Source: Parelaphostrongylus tenuis
Taxonomy: Eukaryota; Nematoda; Chromadorea; Rhabditida; Metastrongylidae
Length of the DNA: 64,000 nucleotides
Assembly (NCBI GenBank): GCA_019055375.1
Contig: JAHQIW010007157.1
Span: 1 to 64,000, forward strand
Reading direction: 5' to 3'
Notes under the pieces: model-generated
Seen by the model: the letters and a program-made list of their open reading frames with translations, nothing else
Database searches by the model: none
Told to the model about the DNA's origin: nothing
Shown here: positions 3,050 to 56,960 of the stretch, piece after piece
Layout of the letters: each line of letters begins with the position of its first letter
Position numbering within the stretch: position 1 is the stretch's first letter
Made by a program: the position numbers and the translations under genes

Positions 3050-4030
3050 CTTGGAATGATGAAAACGATCCTTTAAGCTGGACGAGAACTTTTCTCAAGA
3101 GTGTTAATTATTATTCAAAAACTAAATTCTTTGGCTAGTGCGCTACGTGGCCATTTTTTTTTGGAAAAAAAAACACTTTTATAACGATGTAAAATTCAAG
3201 AAAACGGTGTGAAATCAAGATAAAATTATGTTCTACACTGCCCTCGCGTTTTCACTGTTACTTCGCTGGAAGCACGAAAAGCATATGAAAATGTCGAGGA
3301 AATCTTATACTACTAGATTCATGCGTTTTATCTGAAGTTTCTTTCGAAGCGGAAAACTATTCGTATTTTAACAATAAAAAGAACACTTCACGTGTGCTTT
3401 CCGAAGCGCCATCGATCGATAGCGGGACGCTGAATAGAATCTGCGGCCATCAGACATCCCGATCGTAGAATAGCCTATAAACAAACCCGCCGAATATGTG
3501 AAAGTCGACCCTGCTGCCCTGCAGTGAAAGGGTCTTCCAAAGAAAATAAGCACAGCGTCAGAATCGGTGAATCTTACGCTTTCGAATAATTACTAATAGT
3601 CTAAAGGAAGAGCTCTGTCCTGTGGCGAAATATGCGCTTGTGAAACAGAAATGTTTTCCATTCACTGAAGCCTTATTATGAAACCTTAAAACGGTTACGT
3701 GTCGCACTAGCCAGAGATTTAAGCTTACGAATAATTACTTGTGAAAAGTTCTCATCCAGCGAATGGAATCGTTTCTTCATCCGCTGCCGTCTAACGAAAA
3801 TAATACCCATTCTCTTTTGTTTCATATGACGGGAAGGGTTGTGGCCATTGAAGAGATCGAAGTAGTGATTGTAGATGATTTTCTCCATTCCCTTTCTGGA
3901 ACCTCTAACTGTTCCGTCAGGGTTTCGTACTGCAATAATTTTGGCCTTGCATAGCAAAGCTGCGATGGCTTTAGTGAATGCTCGGTAAGTAACAACCACT
4001 CAACCACGGCCCTAAATTTGTTGATGTTGA
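3050..4030. repeat. Dispersed repeat R1 block
   Basis: Units carry TTATTCAAAAACTAAATTCT, TTGGCTAGTGCGCTACGTGG, TAGCCAGAGATTTAAGCTTA and CTCATCCAGCGAATGGAATC, the R1 pattern (ATTCGA-TAGCTCAAATC ... GCTCTGTCCAGCGAGAAA). No convincing gene. Confidence 0.5.
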
Positions 4031-5400: not shown

Positions 5401-6600
5401 TCTTCGTTTTAACGGTTGAAAAACCATATTTTGTTTCACATTCAAGCATTTCTCGTTGGGCAAAGCTTTTTTCATAAGCAGCTGATAATCTCATCAGGTA
5501 GGGAAAGTTTAGCATTTTCAAAGATTTACTTGATTTTGATAAAGGGCTTCTCAGAGTGTTGTAGTGCGATCAAAAGAAGATGAGATGCCGCATATTTGGA
5601 TCATTTTCAATGTCCGCATCTTGTTTTGCACACCTCTTAGGAAAAAAACTTGTGGTTTTTGTCAGAGTTACTAGTAACCATTCGATAGTTTGAATCTTGG
5701 GAATTTAGATGGTATACTTCAATCTTAGAATGGCTCCCTTAATGCGCCCTAACAGTAAAAAACAAAATATTTTTTCACACTTGAGCATTTCCCACTGAAG
5801 TTAGCTTTTCCGCTGGACTTCTAGTAATTCCTCGATAGCTCAGATCTTCACGGTTTCATAACTTTGTTTTTTCAGAGAATTAAATTTTATTCATTGTATT
5901 ATAGTCGCCAACAGAAGATTACGTTTCGCAGTTAGTTGATGTTTTTCTGAATACACTTCGACTTGAGGTGAATTTTGCGAAGTCTCATTCTTTGGAGTGC
6001 GAAACCCAATCTTCTTTTGACTACCACAGCTCACTAAGGAGTTCTCCTTAAAAATAAACCAGTCTTTGAAATCGCTGAAATTTGCACTATCGAAAGGTTA
6101 TTGATTGTTCATAGAAAAACTTTATTCGGCGAGAAATCCTTAAGTATGAAACAAATTTTTACTTCGACTGTTACCAGCGCAAAAATAAGCCTTTTAAGAA
6201 ACAATTAATACCATTGAAGTTCACTTGATTTCAGCTGTCGAATGAATGCTATTATTTTGGTGGTATAGGTCTTTTTTAGAAAAAGCTGAAGGTTCACGAG
6301 CGCAATCCTTGAAATACGGTTGCATGCGACAGAAGTTTTTTTTTTCCAAAAGTGGGAATTTTCAAGGCGGTTGAGCGTTATTCTCTTTATAAATACGTTC
6401 ATAAAGGTTTTTCAAAGATGATTAAGTTATTTTCAGCATAGGAGTCTCTAGGGTTCAAAATCTAACTCTATAATCCCAAAAAATCCGCTTTCAAGTAGAA
6501 AAATTAGATTGCGATTGCAAAACGTCATGTTTATTTTTCATTGGAAGGTACTGTGGGCTTACTTTTCAAACAACAAGCTTAGTATTAAAGTCAGAATTTT
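5400..6600. repeat. Dispersed repeat R1 block
   Basis: Several degenerate R1 units in a row, for example GTAACCATTCGATAGTTTGA, TTCCTCGATAGCTCAGATC and TTATTCGGCGAGAAATCC. No coding support. Confidence 0.5.
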
Positions 6601-6825
6601 TCAAGCTATCTAATGGCTACAAAAATATTAAGAAGATACAAGAAAATGCTTTTCAACACCTGGGAATATAACCCTTTTCGCAAGTATGTGGCTTTTTCTT
6701 TTGAGAAAGGCGAGGTTTTGGGCTGTGCTATCGTTAATCTTGCCAAAATCATTCATACAGAAGTCTTGTCAGGATATTTCACCGTTTTTGATCGCAATGT
6801 TCCTCTGAGAGCTTTATTAATCCGA

Positions 6826-6920
6826 AGTTCTTTAGAGCGCGCACCACTCATCCTAGCCCGTCCGAGCGGCGCGGCCAGCTGAGGGTCATATTGACTTTCA
6901 TCGTCCGCAAAGGGATATAA
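6826..6920 (-). repeat. GC-rich dispersed repeat R3
   Basis: Minus strand: CCCTTTGCGGACGATGAAAG, CAGCTGGCCGCGCCGCTCGG and GTGCGCGCTCTAAAG. Confidence 0.5.
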
Positions 6921-13257: not shown

Positions 13258-13610
13258 ATGAATGATAATGATAATCATTATGATAGTGATGATAATTATC
13301 ACTGTTTTGAGCTGCTTGTGAGGTCTAATAAGGGCACTTATACGCTGTTAGACATTGCAGTGACCATCAGTCGAACAACTTGTAGCTGATACAATGAATC
13401 ATACTTTCATTCGGTAATGATTGTGATAATGATAATGGTAGTGATAAATATAATGATGATAGTGCTAGTGATGACAAAGATAATGATGATAGTGATGATA
13501 ATGATAAAGATAGTGATAATGATAATGATGTTAGTGGTAATGATAATGTGAGTGATAGTGATAATGTTGATGATAGTGATGGTAGTGATAAGAATAATAA
13601 TAACAATTTA
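13258..13610 (+). repeat. GATAAT/GATAGT microsatellite
   Basis: About 350 bp of imperfect (GATAAT/AGTGAT) units. It resumes at 13861-13935 beyond the hammerhead element. Confidence 0.9.
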
Positions 13611-13855
13611 ATCTGATAAAGCTATGACATGTTTTGAGCCGATAGGTCTAGTGCTATATAGGCGCCTATTTCGTCCTACTGGGACTCATCAGTAGCACCC
13701 TCCCTCGGTTCCGTCGATCCCTTGAGGTTAAATAATCCTCTAAAGGAATCGACGCCGAGTAAAAACTAAGCACCGCAAGTCGGATGATGGTATTACCTGA
13801 CTTTGTGGTGACCGGCAGTCGAGCTTGCGGCTTTTAAAAATATAGCAGAGGAATA
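13611..13855 (-). mobile_element. Hammerhead-bearing structured element (retrozyme-like)
   Basis: About 245 bp of non-repetitive sequence interrupts a GATAAT/AGTGAT microsatellite, which lies on both sides (13258-13610 and 13861-13935). Besides the ribozyme it holds a long hairpin at 13704-13759 (CTCGG/CCGAG, CGTCGAT/ATCGACG, CCTT/AAGG and AGG/CCT arms) and a second with CCGCAAG (13773-13779) pairing CTTGCGG (13824-13830). A compact set of ribozyme plus hairpins without an ORF is the organisation of retrozymes. Exact ends and a target duplication were not found. Confidence 0.55.
13651..13698 (-). ncRNA. Hammerhead ribozyme, type I, intact
   Basis: Read on the minus strand: helix I GUGCUA/UAGCAC (6 bp), core CUGAUGA, helix II GUCC/GGAC with a CAGUA loop, core GAAA, helix III AUAGG/CCUAU closed by two bases, and an AUA cleavage triplet. 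Every invariant hammerhead core base is present. Cleavage is predicted between plus-strand positions 13657 and 13656. The 48-nt motif lies beside two long hairpins. Confidence 0.88.
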
Positions 13856-13860
13856 ATTAT

Positions 13861-14330: not shown

Positions 14331-14879
14331 ACAAAGTTGGTGCGTGCCCGAAAAGAAATTCGGTCTACGTTTACAGAGAAACGTTATAAAATGCCATAAA
14401 GTGCCACTGATGAGACCCCTGTTCAAATAATTTTAGCAAGATTAACGCTATGCTTCCCATAATCTTGCCTTTTTCAAATGAAAAAACCACATCCTCTTGG
14501 AAATTAATGTAATTTCAGCTGTTATCAAACTATCCATAAAATCGACTGTTTTTAAAACCTCGTAATGAACATTCAAAATAATTAAAAAAAAGAATGTTAT
14601 GAAACTGTTCTCTTATCTTTTTAATGTCTTTGTAGTCAGTCTACAGCTAGAAGAGTTTTGTTTTTGATATTAAGCTTGCTTTGTGAAAAAGATTTCCGTA
14701 GTGCGCTCTACTAATAAATAAAAGATAACGTTTTCCGATCGCATTTCATTTTTCTAATTCATAAAGGATTTTTTGGGGTCGTATAATCAGATTTCGATTC
14801 CTGTAAATTTCTTTGGCACAAAAAAGTTAAAATTTCATTAAAAGGACTTTTGTAAGCGTATTCTCTAAAAGAATAACGC

Positions 14880-18216: not shown

Positions 18217-21200
18217 GAAAAGCTTGGTTATGGGGCATGCCGATCGGTCAATGAATTCCAGAAGTTGCATCGTATTGGGGAAGGGACTTATGGAATTGTA
18301 TATTGTGCAAAGGATTCAAAGAATGGTCAAGTGGTAAGTGGGAATACAAAATTGATAAGCTTTGTCTTTAACAACAGTTTTAGTCTGACGTTGTTTGATT
18401 TCGTTAGAGTTGCACGATCTACGTTTGCTTATATTTTTATGATGGCTATATAGCCGTTCACAGTTTCTATCATTGATTCCCAATTTCCTGAACATAACTT
18501 TATTGAAAGTGATTAATTCCATATTACGCAGATGTGGAAGATTGAACATTCCAACCTACGTTGATGTATGAGGATTGAAGACAGGCATACTCAAAAATAT
18601 TGAAAATAAGTTGAAGCAGATCAATTTTCATTCTAGCGACAACTGTTGGAGAAAAGTTATCATCGATTTTATTACAAGGGATATTCAGTGCACGTCGGAA
18701 ACACCATCGCCCGTTGGCTAGATTTTCAGCAAGATCTCAAAAATTCAGCAATTTGTTCTCTCATGAGCAACCATTCACTCACAGATGTTGGGAGGATCAA
18801 ATTTTCAGTGTCTCCTTATCCCCTTGAAGGCCAACGGAAGTGTAGGTGGTTCAGCTGAAACGGTTTACGAAATAACGGTTATCCGCGTTATCGTATAAGT
18901 TTTTATCATAAAACTAGCAGAATTTTTCGGATTTATGGTGTAATATTCCTGTGACAAAGTTTGTGTACAAAAACCTGTTATTAAAATCTATTTCTAACTG
19001 TCACTGGTCACTATTGGAGGTTGAAACACATATCTTTTCTAGGTAGCACTGAAAAAGGTACGTGTCGATAGCAAAATGAGTGCTCAAATGGGCATCTCAG
19101 ACTCAGGCACTTAGAGAAATTGTGCTTTTGAAAAGATTACGGCATGAAAACATCGTTGAGTTGAAGGAAGTTGCAGTGTCTCGTGATCCACAAGGAATGT
19201 TTCTTGTTATGGAGTACTGTGAGCAGGTACGTAAAAAAAAGGGTAACAGCTCTCTTGTATTTTTGGAAATCTGTTCAGATTACCTCATTCAATCTTGCCA
19301 GCATGGAAACTGGACGCAAAATTTATTTTAAATTACGCAGAAAAATGGATTTGCGGAGTGAAAGTTACGTTGAAAGGGAGCAGGCCTATATAAACATCAT
19401 CGGAGTGCTCAGTGTGACATTCGTGTCGCAGCGGGAACAGTGAAGAACTAGGCGTGAACGTGTAGGCAAGGGGCCTGGGATCAGGCGTCGTTTCAAAATC
19501 TCAAATATAGTGTGCAATAGTATTTGTAAGACGGACAGAACGGCTCATCTTATAGGATCTCGCCAAACTTTTGGATGAGATGGTACATCCATTCACAGAG
19601 CCACAGGTGAAATGTTTGATGCAACAATTATTTCGAGCATTGAACTACATGCACTCACATTATGTGCTTCATCGCGATCTGAAGGTGTGCTGTGATTGTT
19701 TGTTTTCCACTTTTCCCAGTAATTTTAAACCAACCAAGCTTTTTTGTTTGAAAAAATTCGCATAATTTCCCTTTATTCCACTCCCTATTTCCACCTCTTG
19801 GCTTTTTCTGCTCAGGTTGACGGTTTTATTAGTCATTAGATAGTTTAAAGTACGAGGATTTCAACGGTGTACTTCATTTCTAAAAGGCCTTTTTCCCGTT
19901 GTTGAATTAGAAATCAAAAGTTGTTTCACACTTGGAGCACTATACTCTGGTGAGAGCTGTTTTTCTCTAACTTCTAGTAATCATTCGATAGCTCAAACCT
20001 CACAATTTAATCATATATCTGGTTTTCGAAATAGTACTTCTTAGTGCGCTGTAACTATCAAAAGAATGTTGGGTTTTGCAAATAACCGTTAAATTGCAGA
20101 AGGCGCGGTGGCTTTGTGCCACTGTTGCAAAACCTCCGTCCACATATCGGAACAAAGAGTGCTCCCCAATTGCAAAGCCCAATCTTCATTTGACTGTCTA
20201 CAGTGTAATAAGAAATCTTTTACAAGAACCAAGTAACCGTTGAATTCGTCGGATATTTAAGCTATCGAATGAGTGCTAAAATTCTAGGAAAATAATTTTG
20301 TCTAGCGAGAAAAGCCCGGGTATCAATCATAGCTTTATTTTTACTGTTACAGCGTAACAAAAAAAGTCCTTTAGGAATTGAAATACACCGTTGAAATTTC
20401 CGTGATTTGCTACCGAATGACTATTAAAATAAAGATCAGAACCGTGATTTTTCAAAGGGTCGGAACAGGTGGCGGATAACGGAGAAGTATCAAAGTCCGC
20501 TATTTTAATTGGCCTTGGATCTTTTAGTTTAGTATAGAATGTTCGATTTTAGGTGTCGAACCTTCTTCTCACGAGTCATGGTATTTTGAAGGTTGCGGAT
20601 TTCGGGTTGGCACGTGTTTTCGGTGAGCCTGACATGAGCATGACACCTAGAGTGATAACGCTTTGGTGAGCTTTTCGATCACTGCTGAATAATTTGCGGT
20701 TAGGAGGGGTGAGTTTCTGAATTCATTAGGCATGAGCCCTTCGCTGTCTATATCTTCTATAGGAATGCATAAACACAGAGGTTCCTTCGAGTTTCTGGTG
20801 ACATATACTCAGATGAGAAAGTTGTAATAAGGCAGGATATCGTGTTAGTCATCTTCTACACTGTGTAGGTATCGATGTCCTGAGCTGTTATTTGGCAGCA
20901 AAACGCAAACAACAGGTATTGACCAATGGGCAGCCGGATGCATACTGGGTGAACTGCTTCTGCATCGCCCGCTTCTGCCAGGAAAAAGTGATGTTGAACA
21001 GGTTGACCTGATTTAGACAAATCGTATATTTTCTAAATGCTTTATTGTCATTGTTTATCAAATGTTTAATATAAGAAGACTTCATAATGAAGTCATCTTG
21101 TGAGCAAACTATTCTAGTGATTACAGATTGACAAAATTATCAGTCTTCTTGGTACACCAACAACCAAAAATCTGGGCCGAATTAGAAACATTGCCTCTAC

Positions 21201-24140
21201 TAGAGAATTTCACTCTAAAGACACAGCCGTTCAACAATGTGAAGGTAGTTACGTCCCATCATGCGTAAATCTTAGATTCTTGTTCGATATTCTGTGATCC
21301 TCACTCATCAGCTTGTGCTGCACATGTAGCGTAGTGGTGAGAGTGATGTGCACAGTGTTATATAATAAACAATATGATTGTTGGTTTGTTCCCCCATGGC
21401 AAATCAATCCCTCCATTCCGTTACCATTGGCGTTCTAGTACCAAATTTGACTGAGAGTATTAGAACAGTTCTCCAATTCTACCAAGCCACGCCTATTGTA
21501 ATTCTACCAATAGCCAAAAGAATAAAAACAAAGCATCCTTAGAGGATTAATCGAGTACCTTATTTGTTTTCATAATCATCATCTCGTAGTCTGTTAATTT
21601 TGTATTGATAATCTCATCTTGTTCTTCTTCTTATTGTCTAAAATGAGCTGTATGGCTTTCTATTGAACGGATTTCCAGGTAGTTTTTGAATCAGCGTCTT
21701 CGTCAGCAATCGACCTTTTGAATGCACTTTTTATGTATGATCCAAAGAAGCGGATAAGCGCAGCAGGTGCCTTGGCACATCCGTTCTTTACAGTACGTGA
21801 AACTACTTGTCTCATTCAATTTTACTACAATACAATGCGCCCTGAATATGTGTATTCAATGACTGTAAGAAGTAGGCGATAAAAAAATAACGAAAATTTC
21901 TTTGAAATCTAATCCCACTCTTGGGAAGAAAAGTTCTTTTCATCTCTTGGGTATGGTTATATATCTGCCTCTTATTTTCTTCCTACTATTCACCATTCCA
22001 GTATATGGTTTTATGTTAATCTTAATCCAAAGATATTTCCACGAAAAACATCTTGATGAACAGTTGGTTCTTTCCGGTTTTAAGGGGACGATTCAATATC
22101 CGACATCATTTGCTGGACAGGAACTTTTCTCAGGGGTGTCAGTAATCATTCGAAAGCCTGAATCACTGGTTAAAGCCCGTGGCCGGTTTTCGAAAATGCC
22201 TTTCTTGACGTTGTTACAGAAAGCCCTCGTGTTACATACACGCATTTTTCTCGCAAGACAGAGCTCTTTTTTTGGATTATTAGTAATCATTCGATATCAT
22301 AATGTTTGCTGATTCCAAAGCTGGGCGTATATTCTGAGAAGACCGTTTCTCTGCAACGTAACAGGAAGGATAGAATTAATTCACATGCGCGAGCAAGGTG
22401 TCTTTGGCCAATGCACCGGCAGCTTTTTGAGGTAGCAATGGGATTGCGCAATTATCGATGGATTCTCGAGCATATGAACGTATTGAGAAAATCTCTTAGT
22501 CTCTGAATGTCTTCGAGTCACTATTGGAACCAATTAGGAAGTTCTGGCCTCCTGAATTTCATCAAAATGATCATAATGAGTATTGGTTTATCCGTATTCA
22601 TAGCTCCTAATGTTTTTCATGACTGCATTTCTCGCAGTGGTATGATGTTTCCAATACACCTAACAGAATTGAGTGGTGAGTGAAAATACGACCTTAAACG
22701 GGAGTCGAACCCATGTTTCATCCATACTGAGGACGCGTGCTACCACTACACCACTGATATCCTTTGGGCCACCAGGTCGTGTTTGTGCGTGTTTGTGTCG
22801 TATCTGAAGTCGTATTTTGCTCACCTTTCAATTCTGTCAGGTGTATTGAAAAAATCATACCACTGAGAAAAATGCAGTCAAAAAACAGAATTTATAAGTA
22901 TTACATTATCACAGTTGCTGTCAGCTCAACTGGTTTTATAAAGCGAAATAGCACATACAACCAAACCTGTTAGAGATTGGTGGCTGATAGCTAACATAGA
23001 GATTTTGAAGAATGAGTGGTGGCGCAAATGTACCTCGATGGTATGGTGGTGTAGTGCTAGCAGGCGTCCCGGGTATGGATGAAACACGGGTTCGACTCCC
23101 GTCTGAGGTCGTATTTTTGCTCGCCACTCAAGTCTGTTAGGCATATTCGTAGCAACATAAAAGTATCTAAACCCTTTTTGTAGCAGAGTCATACGTTTTA
23201 TCTGGAGTTTCTCTTTCAAAGCCAAGAAACAAATTTTAGTTTTATAACAAAGATAGCACTAGCATAAGATCGGTCGCAAATCGATCGGTAATTGCGCAAC
23301 CCCTTTGCTACCTCACCGAGCGGCCTGTAATTGAACAAAGACAACCTTGCTTGTACTTGTAATTAATCTTATTTTCCGTGCTGTGTTGCAGGGAAGCGGT
23401 CTTTTCAGGTTGTAAGCACAACGTTGGAATCAACACACATTAGCTATCAGTAGTTTTTCCGGTTGAGCAGTTCCGAGGTGTCAAATATAGTATAATATAA
23501 TATATTGCGAGTATGCATTACTTCACTGTATTATTGTATTGCATCACTAATGATTCAATTGATACTATATTTAGCACCTCGCAACTGCTCAACAGAAAAA
23601 CTAGTGATCTACTCCCACTATGCCGAGGTTAGTCGATAGTTCTTGGGAATTACGCTGTCGAATGAGTCCAAAAAGGAGCTTTGTCTGGCGAGAAATATGT
23701 GCGTCTGAGACATATTTTTATTTTGGATTTTACTGTGTCATAAAAGGGGCCTTTTAAATTTGGCCTCGTAGGGCTTTAGCCAGAAATTTAGGCCTTTGAA
23801 TGTTTTTAACACTCCTATGAAAAGTTCGTGTTCAGCGAATGAGGTCGAATGTTCATTTGTCCCTTTGTAAACGAAAAGAACCGAGTAGTGTTTTTTTACT
23901 TTCATCAAGTTTTGTTGTTTATTCGTTTTCTACGCATAGTAAAGTCTTAAATGTGGAAGTAATATGCTTGAAAAAGGCTGTGGATTATTGTTCGTGTATT
24001 TCATTAAGAAGATATGGAATTATTAACTCTTGAAAAGTATTATTTAGGAACGACCATTTCCTTGTGATCCAGTTCTGATTCCATCATTGCCACCAAACTA
24101 CGGGAAGAAACGAAAACGTGATGATCTGCCACAAAAATAA
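18217..24140 (+). CDS. cdk10: Cyclin-dependent kinase 10 (CDK10/PISSLRE-type), 8 exons, two frameshifts
   Basis: This is a CMGC Ser/Thr kinase of the CDK10 type; in other animals CDK10 pairs with cyclin M. Exons: 18217-18333 (Gly-rich loop GEGTYGIVY), 19043-19226 (VALKK with the catalytic Lys, then [20 protein letters not shown] and hinge MEYCEQ), 19556-19684 (HRDLK catalytic loop), 20553-20665 (DFGLAR, then MTPRVITLW of the T-loop), 20869-21001 ([21 protein letters not shown]), 21127-21244 (LLGTP, then TQPFNNVK in a shifted frame), 21679-21792 ([13 protein letters not shown]) and 24048-24140 (basic tail [14 protein letters not shown] 24138-24140). AATAAA follows at 24142. Exons 2 and 6 are each 3n+1 nt between phase-0 borders, and in each the homologous reading frame switches once, so each carries one extra base. 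The upstream exon with the start codon was not found; the first exon seen begins [14 protein letters not shown]. Kinase identity is firm. Whether the copy is functional depends on the two indels. Confidence 0.9.
19810..20480. repeat. Dispersed repeat R1 block in a CDK10 intron
   Basis: Fills most of the intron 19685-20552: GTCATTAGATAGTTTAAAG, AATCATTCGATAGCTCAAAC, TTTTGTCTAGCGAGAAAAGC. Confidence 0.5.
22090..22520. repeat. Dispersed repeat R1 block in the last CDK10 intron
   Basis: GTAATCATTCGAAAGCCTGA, ACACGCATTTTTCTCGCAAG and AATCATTCGATATCATAATG; the same arrangement recurs near 37.72-38.13 and 50.13-50.5 kb. Confidence 0.5.
22650..22860 (-). mobile_element. Family B element: inverted-repeat ends around a tRNA-like core
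   Basis: Ends are inverted: CACCTAACAGAATTGAGTGG (about 22661-22680) against TCAATTCTGTCAGGTGTATT (about 22827-22848). The middle, minus strand, reads GGTGTAGTGGTAGCACGCG and GGGTTCGACTCCCG, tRNA A- and B-box like. Confidence 0.6.
22920..23165 (+). mobile_element. Family B element with tRNA-like core
   Basis: The core at about 23034-23110 folds partly as a tRNA: acceptor-like ACCTC/GAGGT, box A GGTGTAGTGCTAGC, and a perfect T-arm ACGGG/CCCGT around TTCGACT. The anticodon arm is not standard, so it is not a tRNA gene. The left flank AGCTCAACTGGTTTTATAAA is shared with 55.91 kb. Confidence 0.6.
23448..23612. mobile_element. MITE with about 45-bp terminal inverted repeats
   Basis: The left arm (AGTTTTTCCGGTTGAGCAGT, TCCGAGGTGTCAAATATAGT) is inverted at the right (ATACTATATTTAGCACCTCG, AACTGCTCAACAGAAAAACT). 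The centre is AT-rich. Fragments of the same arm occur near 30.6, 46.4 and 52.98 kb. Confidence 0.7.
23620..23860. repeat. Dispersed repeat R1 unit
   Basis: Contains GCTTTGTCTGGCGAGAAATA and AAAGTTCGTGTTCAGCGAAT. In the last CDK10 intron. Confidence 0.45.
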
Positions 24141-41215: not shown

Positions 41216-41689
41216 AGTGCTCATAGCAGACCTCATGAAAGGCTTATAATATGTTGTCAGGATATATTAATTTTGAGCGAGATCTTAAAAACAGTCGACT
41301 ATGCCGGGGCTAGTGATTGTTTGATCGCGCGTTTTGCTATCCGATTGATATAAATATACGTAGGATTTTACCTTGAGTTGGATGGTAGTATTTGAGTCGA
41401 AAAAACTCCGACATTACATAATATGGAGAACATTATGTGAGCTGTAGTTGTGGACAGTGTTTTTGGCCTATTTTTACATGTCCCGATATGCCGAACTGTG
41501 TCAATTCTAAAGCTTCTTAAATCTGATCTAATTCCACACATCAATCGACAGAACAAATAGAGAGAACGATGCAGACCTATAGTTGTTACGTCAAATACAG
41601 TATGAAAGCAATTTCCTATCAGAAAAAAAGAATATGAAACTTTTTCTGGTAATTTTATTACAGCACACTCATAATGTCGGATTGACACT

Positions 41690-43250: not shown

Positions 43251-43343
43251 AAACTATTCTCTATAATCGACTGTTTTTGGAGACCTCGCTTAGAATTAAT
43301 ACATTCTGACAGCATATTTTAAGCCTTTCAAGACGCCTGTTAT

Positions 43344-43386
43344 GGTACAGACATGTGTTTCGTCCTTTCCTCATCAGTAAGTAGCC
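43344..43386 (-). ncRNA. Hammerhead motif with intact core, weak helices
   Basis: The minus strand reads CUGAUGAG, a short GAAAGGA, CGAAA and ACAUGUC. All catalytic core bases are present. Helix I (GGCUAC with GUACC) needs bulges and helix II is poorly paired. The tail GGCTTAAAATATGCTGTC is shared with the 59.5-kb copy. Confidence 0.5.
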
Positions 43387-55341: not shown

Positions 55342-56122
55342 AAATTGTAAATTAACCAGTATTTTTAGACATTATGTCGCTTAGATACTCTTGCACTTTA
55401 TAGCACTTTACAGCACAAAATAATAGGAACTTAAATAAATTTGCATTTATTCACTTATAGAGAAGTGCAAATACTTTTACATAAACTCCACCCTGTTCCA
55501 CCTTTTTAGTGAAGCGTGTCTTTTGCTACTGCTCGAAGTATTAGTGATTGTTTGATAGCGTACGAGAGGATTTAATTTTAACTAAAAAAAACTAAAACTA
55601 AACTAAAAACTTAACTTAACTTTTTTTCCAAACAGCCTTTTTGTTGCGCTCTGACAGTAAAAATGGATTTTATTTTACACTTAGGCAATTTTCGTTGGAC
55701 AAGTTTCTCCTTCAAAGTTTTAATAACCACTCGAGAGCACAAAATTGGGCAAATTCAATAATGTACGTGGTTATTAAAAAGGACCCCTCATTGTGCTGTA
55801 ACACTCAAATGAAGATTGGTTTCGCAATTTGAATTATTTCCATGTACCTAAGAGAATTGAGTGGTTAGCATTTAGTAAAAAGTAAGAGTATTAGTAATTA
55901 GAATAGCTGTCAGCTCAACTGGGTTTATAAAGCGAAATCGCATACCCGACCAAACCTGTCAAAGGTTGGTGGCTGATAGCTAACATTGAGATGTTGAAGA
56001 ATGAGTGGTCGGGCAAATGTTCCTCAGTGGTGTAGTGGTAGAGCACGCGTCCCCGGATTGGATGAAACGTGGGTTCGATTCGCGCCTAAGACCGCGTTTT
56101 TGCTCACCACTCAATTCTCTTA

Positions 56123-56409
56123 TAATTCCAAAAAAGAATGATTTAAACTGAAAAACGAGGTTGTTACGCCAGGGTCATACACCGGTGTTTCGGAGGTACG
56201 TCCTCCTCGTCAGTGACCCCCGCCCCACATTCAGCCCTGCATTGAAGCAAGGAGGGAGGCGTATGTGGTGATGGAACAGTGTACAATGACACTGGTCCAT
56301 CACCACCCCTCAGTCGATGGATTTTTGCTGTTAGATCAAAACTAAATCAAAAGATCGACTGTTTTTGAAACCCCGAAAAAAACATTTAATATAATTCCAA
56401 AAAAGAATG
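56123..56409 (-). mobile_element. 287-bp hammerhead retroelement with TSD and terminal direct repeats
   Basis: The element is flanked by a 9-bp direct repeat, ATTCTCTTA, at 56114-56122 and 56410-56418. The insertion splits an inverted-repeat end whose intact partner is at 55843-55865, which proves the empty-site sequence. The element starts and ends with the same 18 bp (56123-56140 and 56392-56409, TAATTCCAAAAAAGAATG). Inside are the hammerhead at 56172-56219 and a hairpin at 56265-56306 with an 11-bp outer stem (GTGGTGATGGA) and a 6-bp inner stem (CAGTGT). There is no ORF. A segment ATCGACTGTTTTTGAAACC near 56355 recurs near 14540 and 43267. Confidence 0.8.
56172..56219 (-). ncRNA. Hammerhead ribozyme, type I, intact
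   Basis: Read on the minus strand: helix I GGGUCA/UGACCC (6 bp), core CUGACGA (position 7 is the one variable core base), helix II GGAGG/CCUCC with an ACGUA loop, GAAA, then ACACC/GGUGU, and a GUA cleavage triplet. Cleavage is predicted between plus positions 56178 and 56177. Helix III has no loop, so the active form may be a dimer, as proposed for minimal hammerheads in Penelope-like elements and retrozymes. Confidence 0.9.
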
Positions 56410-56424
56410 ATTCTCTTAGGTACA

Positions 56425-56960
56425 TAGAACACATCATAACAATGCGAAATGCATTGAAAAAAATACTATTAATGTTGAATTATTTCCCTTATCCGCACAC
56501 TGTTTCGACTTTCGACCCCTTGAGGAGAACGTGTTTTCTGATTTCTTCTAGAGTTTTTGGTAATCATTGATAGCTTAGCTCTGGGAAATTTCGAAAATGT
56601 GCTTTATTTTTGAAACGGATCTTTGATGCATTGCAACACTAAGAATATTATTATGTTTCTTCACGAGCTTTGCTCGAGGACAGGGCTTTTCGCCAGACTG
56701 TTAGTAACCATTCGACACAACAAATTTCAAATATTCTGATAGCGCCTTTGATTTTCGAAAGAATGTCTTAGTGCGCTCTAGTTGCCAAAAGAGAGTTAGG
56801 TTTCGCGCCGCACGACAATGGCACCAAGCTTGCCTGTCAAAAAATGCTTGAATGTGAAACGAAATTTTATGTTCACTTCAATAACGCAGTAAGCAATCAG
56901 TTACAAAAATAAAGTAAACTGTTATAATTCTCGTGATTTGAGCTATCAAATTACTACTGA
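56425..56960. repeat. Dispersed repeat R1 block
   Basis: GGTAATCATTGATAGCTTAG, AGTAACCATTCGACACAACA and TGCTTGAATGTGAAACGAAA. Intronic in the 51-60 kb gene region. Confidence 0.45.

Follow-up and report, generated by a model that had tools for sequence, protein, structure and literature searches.

A family of 269-nt hammerhead retrozymes in the nematode Parelaphostrongylus tenuis, with insertion ends resembling those of Penelope-like elements

We examined a 64,000-nt stretch of the Parelaphostrongylus tenuis genome (the window) and characterised a 287-bp insert at 56123-56409, whose RNA sense is the minus strand and which is bordered on both sides by the 9-bp target duplication ATTCTCTTA (56114-56122 and 56410-56418). 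Positions on the circle (cut+n) were numbered in RNA sense from the predicted ribozyme cut; A and B denote the two preferred sites of RNA 3' ends, and PLE stands for Penelope-like element. The features of the insert, with the basis for each, are the following:

56114..56122, unstranded: left target duplication, ATTCTCTTA (sequence)
56123..56409, minus strand: retrozyme copy, 269-nt monomer plus 18 nt (sequence and genome search)
56123..56140, minus strand: 18-nt end repeat at the RNA 3' end, cut+55, class A (circle position worked out)
56142..56167, minus strand: block common with a PLE 3' region, reading GTAACAACCTCG... on the RNA strand and covering cut+11 to +36 (measured on copy L010 and placed by sequence)
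56171..56220, minus strand: type I hammerhead, predicted cut between 56178 and 56177 (descriptor)
56265..56306, unstranded: 42-nt hairpin with stems of 11 and 6 bp (sequence)
56351..56375, minus strand: tail motif CGGGGTTTCAAAAACAGTCGATCTT, between sites A and B (partly common to the PLE tail and an older hammerhead family)
56392..56409, minus strand: 18-nt end repeat at the RNA 5' end, circle position 38 (sequence)
56410..56418, unstranded: right target duplication (sequence)

The insert corresponds to one round of a 269-nt monomer (GC 0.446) plus 18 nt, in a single orientation and with its RNA 3' end at cut+55, in class A. An earlier note on this DNA, made from the sequence alone, had described a 287-bp insert with a 9-bp target duplication and 18-bp terminal direct repeats. 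The insert, the duplication and the identity of the two 18-bp ends are all present, but the ends are not the terminal repeats of a fixed element: the direct repeat measures 23 bp when the overlap with the target duplication is counted, its spacing is 269, and the 18 identical base pairs are the overlap that arises from reading the 269-nt unit for more than one round. LTR-like fixed terminal repeats were thus ruled out, the end identity being this overlap only. The same note had reported the 42-nt hairpin with its two stems, which we recovered, and the lack of an ORF, which agrees with our finding that both overlapping stop-to-stop frames (of at least 62 aa) run past the insert borders. When the closed 269-nt circle was folded in silico, its circular minimum free energy gave z = -4.2 against 150 shuffles, with 62% of the bases predicted to be paired; retrozyme RNAs are described as highly self-paired, above 70% (PMC4918200).

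The insert interrupts one arm of an inverted-repeat host, as had been proposed, and the partner arm lies at 55838-55870. The host element spans 55838-56429 and has a related stretch at 22610-23139. A tRNA-like sequence in the host scored 21.6 bits, below the gathering score, and a tRNA match above the gathering score was found at 22690-22760, in the related stretch. Elsewhere in the window, exon-like frames at 18217-21879 (plus strand), judged by eye, resemble a CDK10-type protein kinase, and a Pfam search of ten window frames gave nothing above cut-off.

The hammerhead at 56171-56220 (minus strand) is of type I, with a stem I of 7 bp, a stem II of 5 bp and a palindromic stem III. We searched for such motifs with our own descriptor (CUGANGA, GAAA and UH, with stems I, II and III of at least 5, 4 and 2 bp), which found two sites in the 64-kb window, 56171-56220 and 13650-13699, both on the minus strand. 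The earlier claim of an intact-core hammerhead on this strand is thereby supported, and the core is kept across the family, with CTGANGA in 145 and GAAA in 152 out of 154 hammerhead units (units with up to 8 substitutions, counted over all 39 fetched loci without removing duplicates); the sole frequent change among these units lies in loop II (76 units). The possibility that the motif scores no better than shuffled sequence was answered differently by the two methods: our descriptor found zero sites in 100 dinucleotide shuffles, whereas the Rfam models, which had been suggested as a check, returned no hammerhead match for 55800-56500 at E up to 10, leaving nothing at or above the gathering threshold of RF00163. 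Another hammerhead element, unlike the first in sequence, lies at 13592-13857 (minus strand) inside a GAT-rich repeat; it reached 24.8 bits with Hammerhead_1 (RF00163; gathering score 34), carries GAATAAT on both sides and, on reading, has its RNA 3' end at about cut+55, in class A. It is perhaps another retrozyme family.

The insert is one of many copies. Searching the assembly (481.5 Mb, 5105 contigs) gave at least 344 matches from the 40 out of 2229 candidate regions that were scored, a sample biased to large, recent arrays. Most retrozyme copies among the matches listed were 95-99% identical, and many repeated with a period near 270. The check that the earlier note had proposed, a BLASTN-type search for further copies, thus yielded tandem copies and target site duplications (TSDs), and the outcome of no other copy did not occur. 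We fetched 39 loci around matches. Target site and structure showed seven of them to be duplicates of two others, and 32 non-redundant loci were kept. Substitutions amounted to about 0.2-1.6% per site depending on the region (measured on a single complete unit from each of the 27 loci, out of 32, that have one). The insert is thus a member of a family of very small mobile elements that is young and present in many copies. Loci L015, L016, L030 and L034 share an identical insertion and target site, and so do L023-L026 and L036; these insertions were either carried in a larger repeat or are assembly duplicates. The window also contains, at 14512-14596, a 79% match to the tail portion of the retrozyme inside a repeat related to 6455-6918; this is an older truncated retrozyme relative.

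The 32 non-redundant loci comprised 21 head-to-head inverted and 11 single-orientation loci, and a tail-to-tail arrangement was found in none of them. Each head-to-head locus carries its left part in minus and its right part in plus orientation, with the RNA 3' ends facing outward. Sides ranged from 0.14 to 16.8 units in length (alignments below 85% identity, among them older copies in L041 and L047, were dropped from the junction mapping). TSDs of at least 8 bp were present in 22/31 loci and absent in 9/31, compared with 10/420 mismatched border pairs drawn from different loci, and TSDs of at least 11 bp in 17/31 loci compared with 4/420; L021, which reaches the contig end, was left out of these counts. 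The TSDs flank whole composites. The RNA 3' ends formed two classes, with limits chosen once the ends had been seen: class A (n = 26, median 59.5, 41-72) and class B (n = 24, median 105.5, 89-128), while a single end, in L018, lay outside both, at position 8. One A end was combined with one B end in 17 of the 20 double-ended loci (label permutation, p = 5.5e-4), including L045, with a B end at 89; the other three were A/A (L012 and L037) and other/B (L018).

Arrays that are tandem and palindrome-like could in principle be satellite DNA or fold-back artefacts of the assembly. We find this scarcely credible, since the TSDs enclose whole composites in 22/31 loci and only one of the 21 head-to-head loci (L022) has its paired 5' junctions no more than 10 nt apart, unlike what fold-back reads or self-primed hairpins would give. 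The unequal junctions of the other 20 loci speak against hairpin self-priming as well, and fold-back or self-priming at palindromes was accordingly disfavoured.

We then compared 39 RNA 3' ends with their target sites, using the 22 non-redundant loci in which a target duplication was present. On average 2.26 nt of the target matched the RNA, against 0.52 with the sites of other loci, and at least 2 matching bases were found at 64% of the ends against 11% of the controls, a contrast somewhat inflated because the register was fitted for the own site and unfitted for the control; the observed mean was unreached in 20000 permutations. The two sides of one locus resembled each other more than permuted sides (mean difference 0.0132 vs 0.0191, p = 2e-4), although in only 6/20 loci was the second side of that locus the nearest one, ties included. 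Among rare alleles, 5 were fixed on both sides of a locus and 26 were on one side, and in 25 of the 26 one-sided cases at least one side had a single unit, and these cases may have arisen by later mutation. Taken together, the comparisons favour, without proving, an origin of both sides of a head-to-head locus from one template molecule.

Similar ends were found in an older hammerhead family, of which 43256-43345 in the window is a member (40 of 683 candidates scored; 81-93% identity in the other copies). The fragments at 41222-41302 and 43256-43345 belong to this large family and end in the retrozyme tail motif. Its hammerheads are mostly decayed: allowing one core mismatch we obtained 7 matches in 6/32 loci, with an intact CTGACGA in L065 and L067. 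In a sample of 30 loci, selected via the B end and with two duplicates removed, 18 head-to-head neighbour pairs comprised 15 A/B, 2 B/B and 1 other (L052 and L057, which share a flank and are probably one insertion, were both kept and scored B/B and B/A), and no tail-to-tail pair was found. The similarity between this family and the retrozyme tail is strong (0/3000 shuffles), while that between the family and the PLE alone is not significant (323/3000 shuffles).

The genome also contains PLEs. Scoring covered 150 of the 1723 first-look candidates from a GIY-YIG profile search; those listed were all above cut-off and included open frames of up to 902 aa. Neighbouring matches less than 5 kb apart on opposite strands formed at least 20 pairs, and all 20 counted by hand were minus-then-plus, that is, head-to-head. 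The 608-aa frame of L098 combines RVT_1 and GIY-YIG domains; among the best 120 of its 288 relatives we found Ancylostoma, Necator, Haemonchus, Nippostrongylus, Heligmosomoides and Angiostrongylus, the last with 78% identity over 51% of the query, and the best match was 74%. The nematode setting pointed out in the earlier note accords with these relatives, the named ones among the best 120 of 288 being mostly strongylid nematodes. An ORF with RT and GIY-YIG is absent from the 269-nt unit and present in these separate elements.

By eye, we assigned a candidate minimal hammerhead 3' of the PLE stop codon (CTGAAGA...GAAACGTC), which resembles that of a published PLE as described (PMC11167929); our own descriptor found no site in the 30 PLE loci, and the PLE cut position rests on this assignment and likeness. 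Downstream of the candidate hammerhead the PLEs have two alternative ends. We aligned 34 ends from 27 of the 30 loci L080-L109 (none from L093, L097 and L103): 23 were of class A, 20 of them at cut+56-66, 8 were of class B (cut+101-105) and 3 lay elsewhere, taking 50-75 as the limits of A, with one B end at a locus edge, with copies counted without de-duplication, and with B ends past +105 unreadable as the PLE template, from L096, ended at cut+105. The common PLE sequence ends within a few bases of that position. In L092, L096 and L102 the PLEs are head-to-head, each locus with one A and one B end. The two preferred retrozyme 3' ends, at about cut+60 and cut+105, are therefore near those of the PLEs of the same genome.

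Retrozyme and PLE also have short sequences in common. The block GTAACACCTCG...GCTTAAA lies at cut+21-44 in PLE L108 and at cut+11-36 in the retrozyme copy L010, with a score reached by 1/3000 shuffles, and ACAGTCGRTCTT lies at cut+89-100 in PLE L096 and at cut+86-97 in the retrozyme, the shuffle test applying to the L108 pair alone. The aligned blocks comprise only about 27 and 12 columns. A candidate stem, whose upstream strand falls within the block at 56142-56167, reads AACCUCG/CGGGGUU in the retrozyme; its counterparts are ACCUCG/CGAGGU in PLE L092 and L108 and AGACCUC/GAGGUCU in the older family. The two strands sit at similar distances from the cut in the three families, and the changes between families are one A-U to G-C and one U-G to U-A. 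The upstream strand is absent from PLE L097, two L069 rows and the window copy at 14512, and is broken in PLE L091, so the stem is a candidate only. Besides these blocks, retrozyme-like sequence was found beside PLE copies in two of the 30 PLE loci (L095, 2536-2699, 76%; L097, 758-794, 92%), and represents either insertion or shared origin.

The short blocks, the common end positions and the retrozyme-like sequence near two of the 30 PLE loci (L095 and L097) would all be expected if the retrozyme were a fragment or solo repeat of a PLE and not a separate element. We consider this quite improbable, because the 269-nt monomer forms a closed repeating unit that lacks a PLE ORF, and because its hammerhead and hairpin are unlike the sequence that follows the PLE ORF; alignment is confined to the two blocks of about 27 and 12 columns. 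The earlier description of the insert as a retrozyme or a minimal Penelope-derived element fits a sequence that is multicopy and tandem, has TSDs and PLE-like ends, and has short blocks in common with PLEs.

LINEs also give twin priming and inverted 5' ends, and the window itself holds at 3679-3999 (minus strand) a frame, recognised by eye, that resembles what we take to be a fragment of a nematode LINE endonuclease-RT. Mobilisation of the retrozyme by a LINE, e.g. an RTE element, and not by a PLE would therefore account for the inversions, but it would leave aside the two fixed internal 3' ends at PLE-like distances (ends having been compared with those of PLEs only) and the common tail motif, and we regard it as very improbable.

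In our judgement the element is likely to be a non-autonomous non-LTR retrozyme, probably with a circular RNA, that relies on PLE machinery for its copying and is primed by both nicked strands of the target; circularity, self-cleavage and the action of the PLE protein on the retrozyme are what we infer from sequence. Its transcripts would cleave themselves, perhaps via paired hammerheads, which we propose because stem III is a palindrome, and a host ligase would close the 269-nt circle. The PLE RT/GIY-YIG protein would recognise the tail module and then cut both target strands, and each target 3' end would prime by short annealing, one at A and the other at B, probably on the same RNA. Reverse transcription more than once round the circle would give tandem units, and joining of the two cDNA ends would give the inverted junction. 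In the window copy, one side only would have been extended, from site A, for 287 nt.

The template of the PLE-driven insertion could instead have been linear, multimeric RNA transcribed from an array already in the genome. Multimeric transcripts could arise from the arrays that exist, and in a published PLE assay insertion is described as independent of ribozyme cleavage (PMC11167929). Sides reaching 16.8 units argue the other way, as a linear template cannot exceed the unit number of its source array, and so do published animal retrozymes of such size, described as circular (PMC7229834). Neither point is decisive, and we leave a linear template a small but real chance.

Beyond the retrozyme, we see an even chance that the retrozyme circles and the PLEs share one mode of integration, in which the PLE complex would hold a single RNA and each nicked strand would prime at its own site, A or B. 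Head-to-head inversion and the one-sided tail would then both reflect double-ended priming on one template, and not self-priming on antisense RNA, and a circular template would give inverted rolling-circle arrays.

Several of these features have precedents in the literature. Animal retrozymes are described as tandem, circular and 170-400 nt long, and PLEs as strong candidates for mobilising them (Cervera and de la Pena 2020, PMC7229834); a 2024 review keeps both LINEs and PLEs as candidate mobilisers and suggests that retrozymes are reduced PLEs (PMC11722881). For the PLE protein of a lizard (Poseidon of Anolis), reverse transcription is reported to start at two adjacent internal RNA sites that are not homologous to the cut DNA, with both target strands extended and the interval between the start sites forming the genomic 'tail' (PMC11167929). 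In bdelloid Penelope elements the repeats are described as head-to-head, one of them with an optional 31-bp tail, and self-priming on antisense RNA was proposed to explain the arrangement (PMC3846280). The two-site ends of the retrozyme resemble the 'tail' signature that the lizard work, as described, ascribes in vitro to the PLE RT (PMC11167929). In the literature searched (titles and the starts of abstracts), we found no earlier report of PLE-type ends on a retrozyme. The accounts cited above leave the mobiliser between LINEs and PLEs (PMC7229834, PMC11722881); the insertion ends reported here point to a PLE, quantitatively and within the same genome. The pairing of A and B at most double-ended loci offers a testable answer to the origin of the head-to-head arrangement of PLEs, and a nematode, most likely a strongylid, joins the available systems with a candidate circle of small size.

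Like the metazoan non-LTR retrozymes as described in PMC7229834, the nematode element has a type I hammerhead, a monomer within 170-400 nt, a GC content below 50%, tandem copies, no ORF and TSDs. It differs from them in its head-to-head inverted arrays and two fixed 3' ends, nematodes are not among the phyla named in the available text of that paper, and its hammerhead is uncalled by Rfam. The weak palindromic stem III, which suggests dimeric cleavage, is reminiscent of the amphibian satellite hammerheads and axolotl retrozymes, a likeness drawn from their description, whereas insertion ends of the A/B kind are undescribed for these in the same available text (PMC7229834). With PLEs, as described in PMC11167929 and PMC3846280, the retrozyme shares two adjacent RT start sites, copies with and without the tail, head-to-head arrangement, TSDs and a hammerhead upstream of the starts; it differs from PLEs in its 269-nt length, in the lack of an RT/endonuclease ORF and in the fuller stems of its hammerhead. 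The element would thus be a retrozyme by anatomy whose insertions carry a PLE-like signature, and it appears to behave as a substrate of PLEs and not as a PLE.
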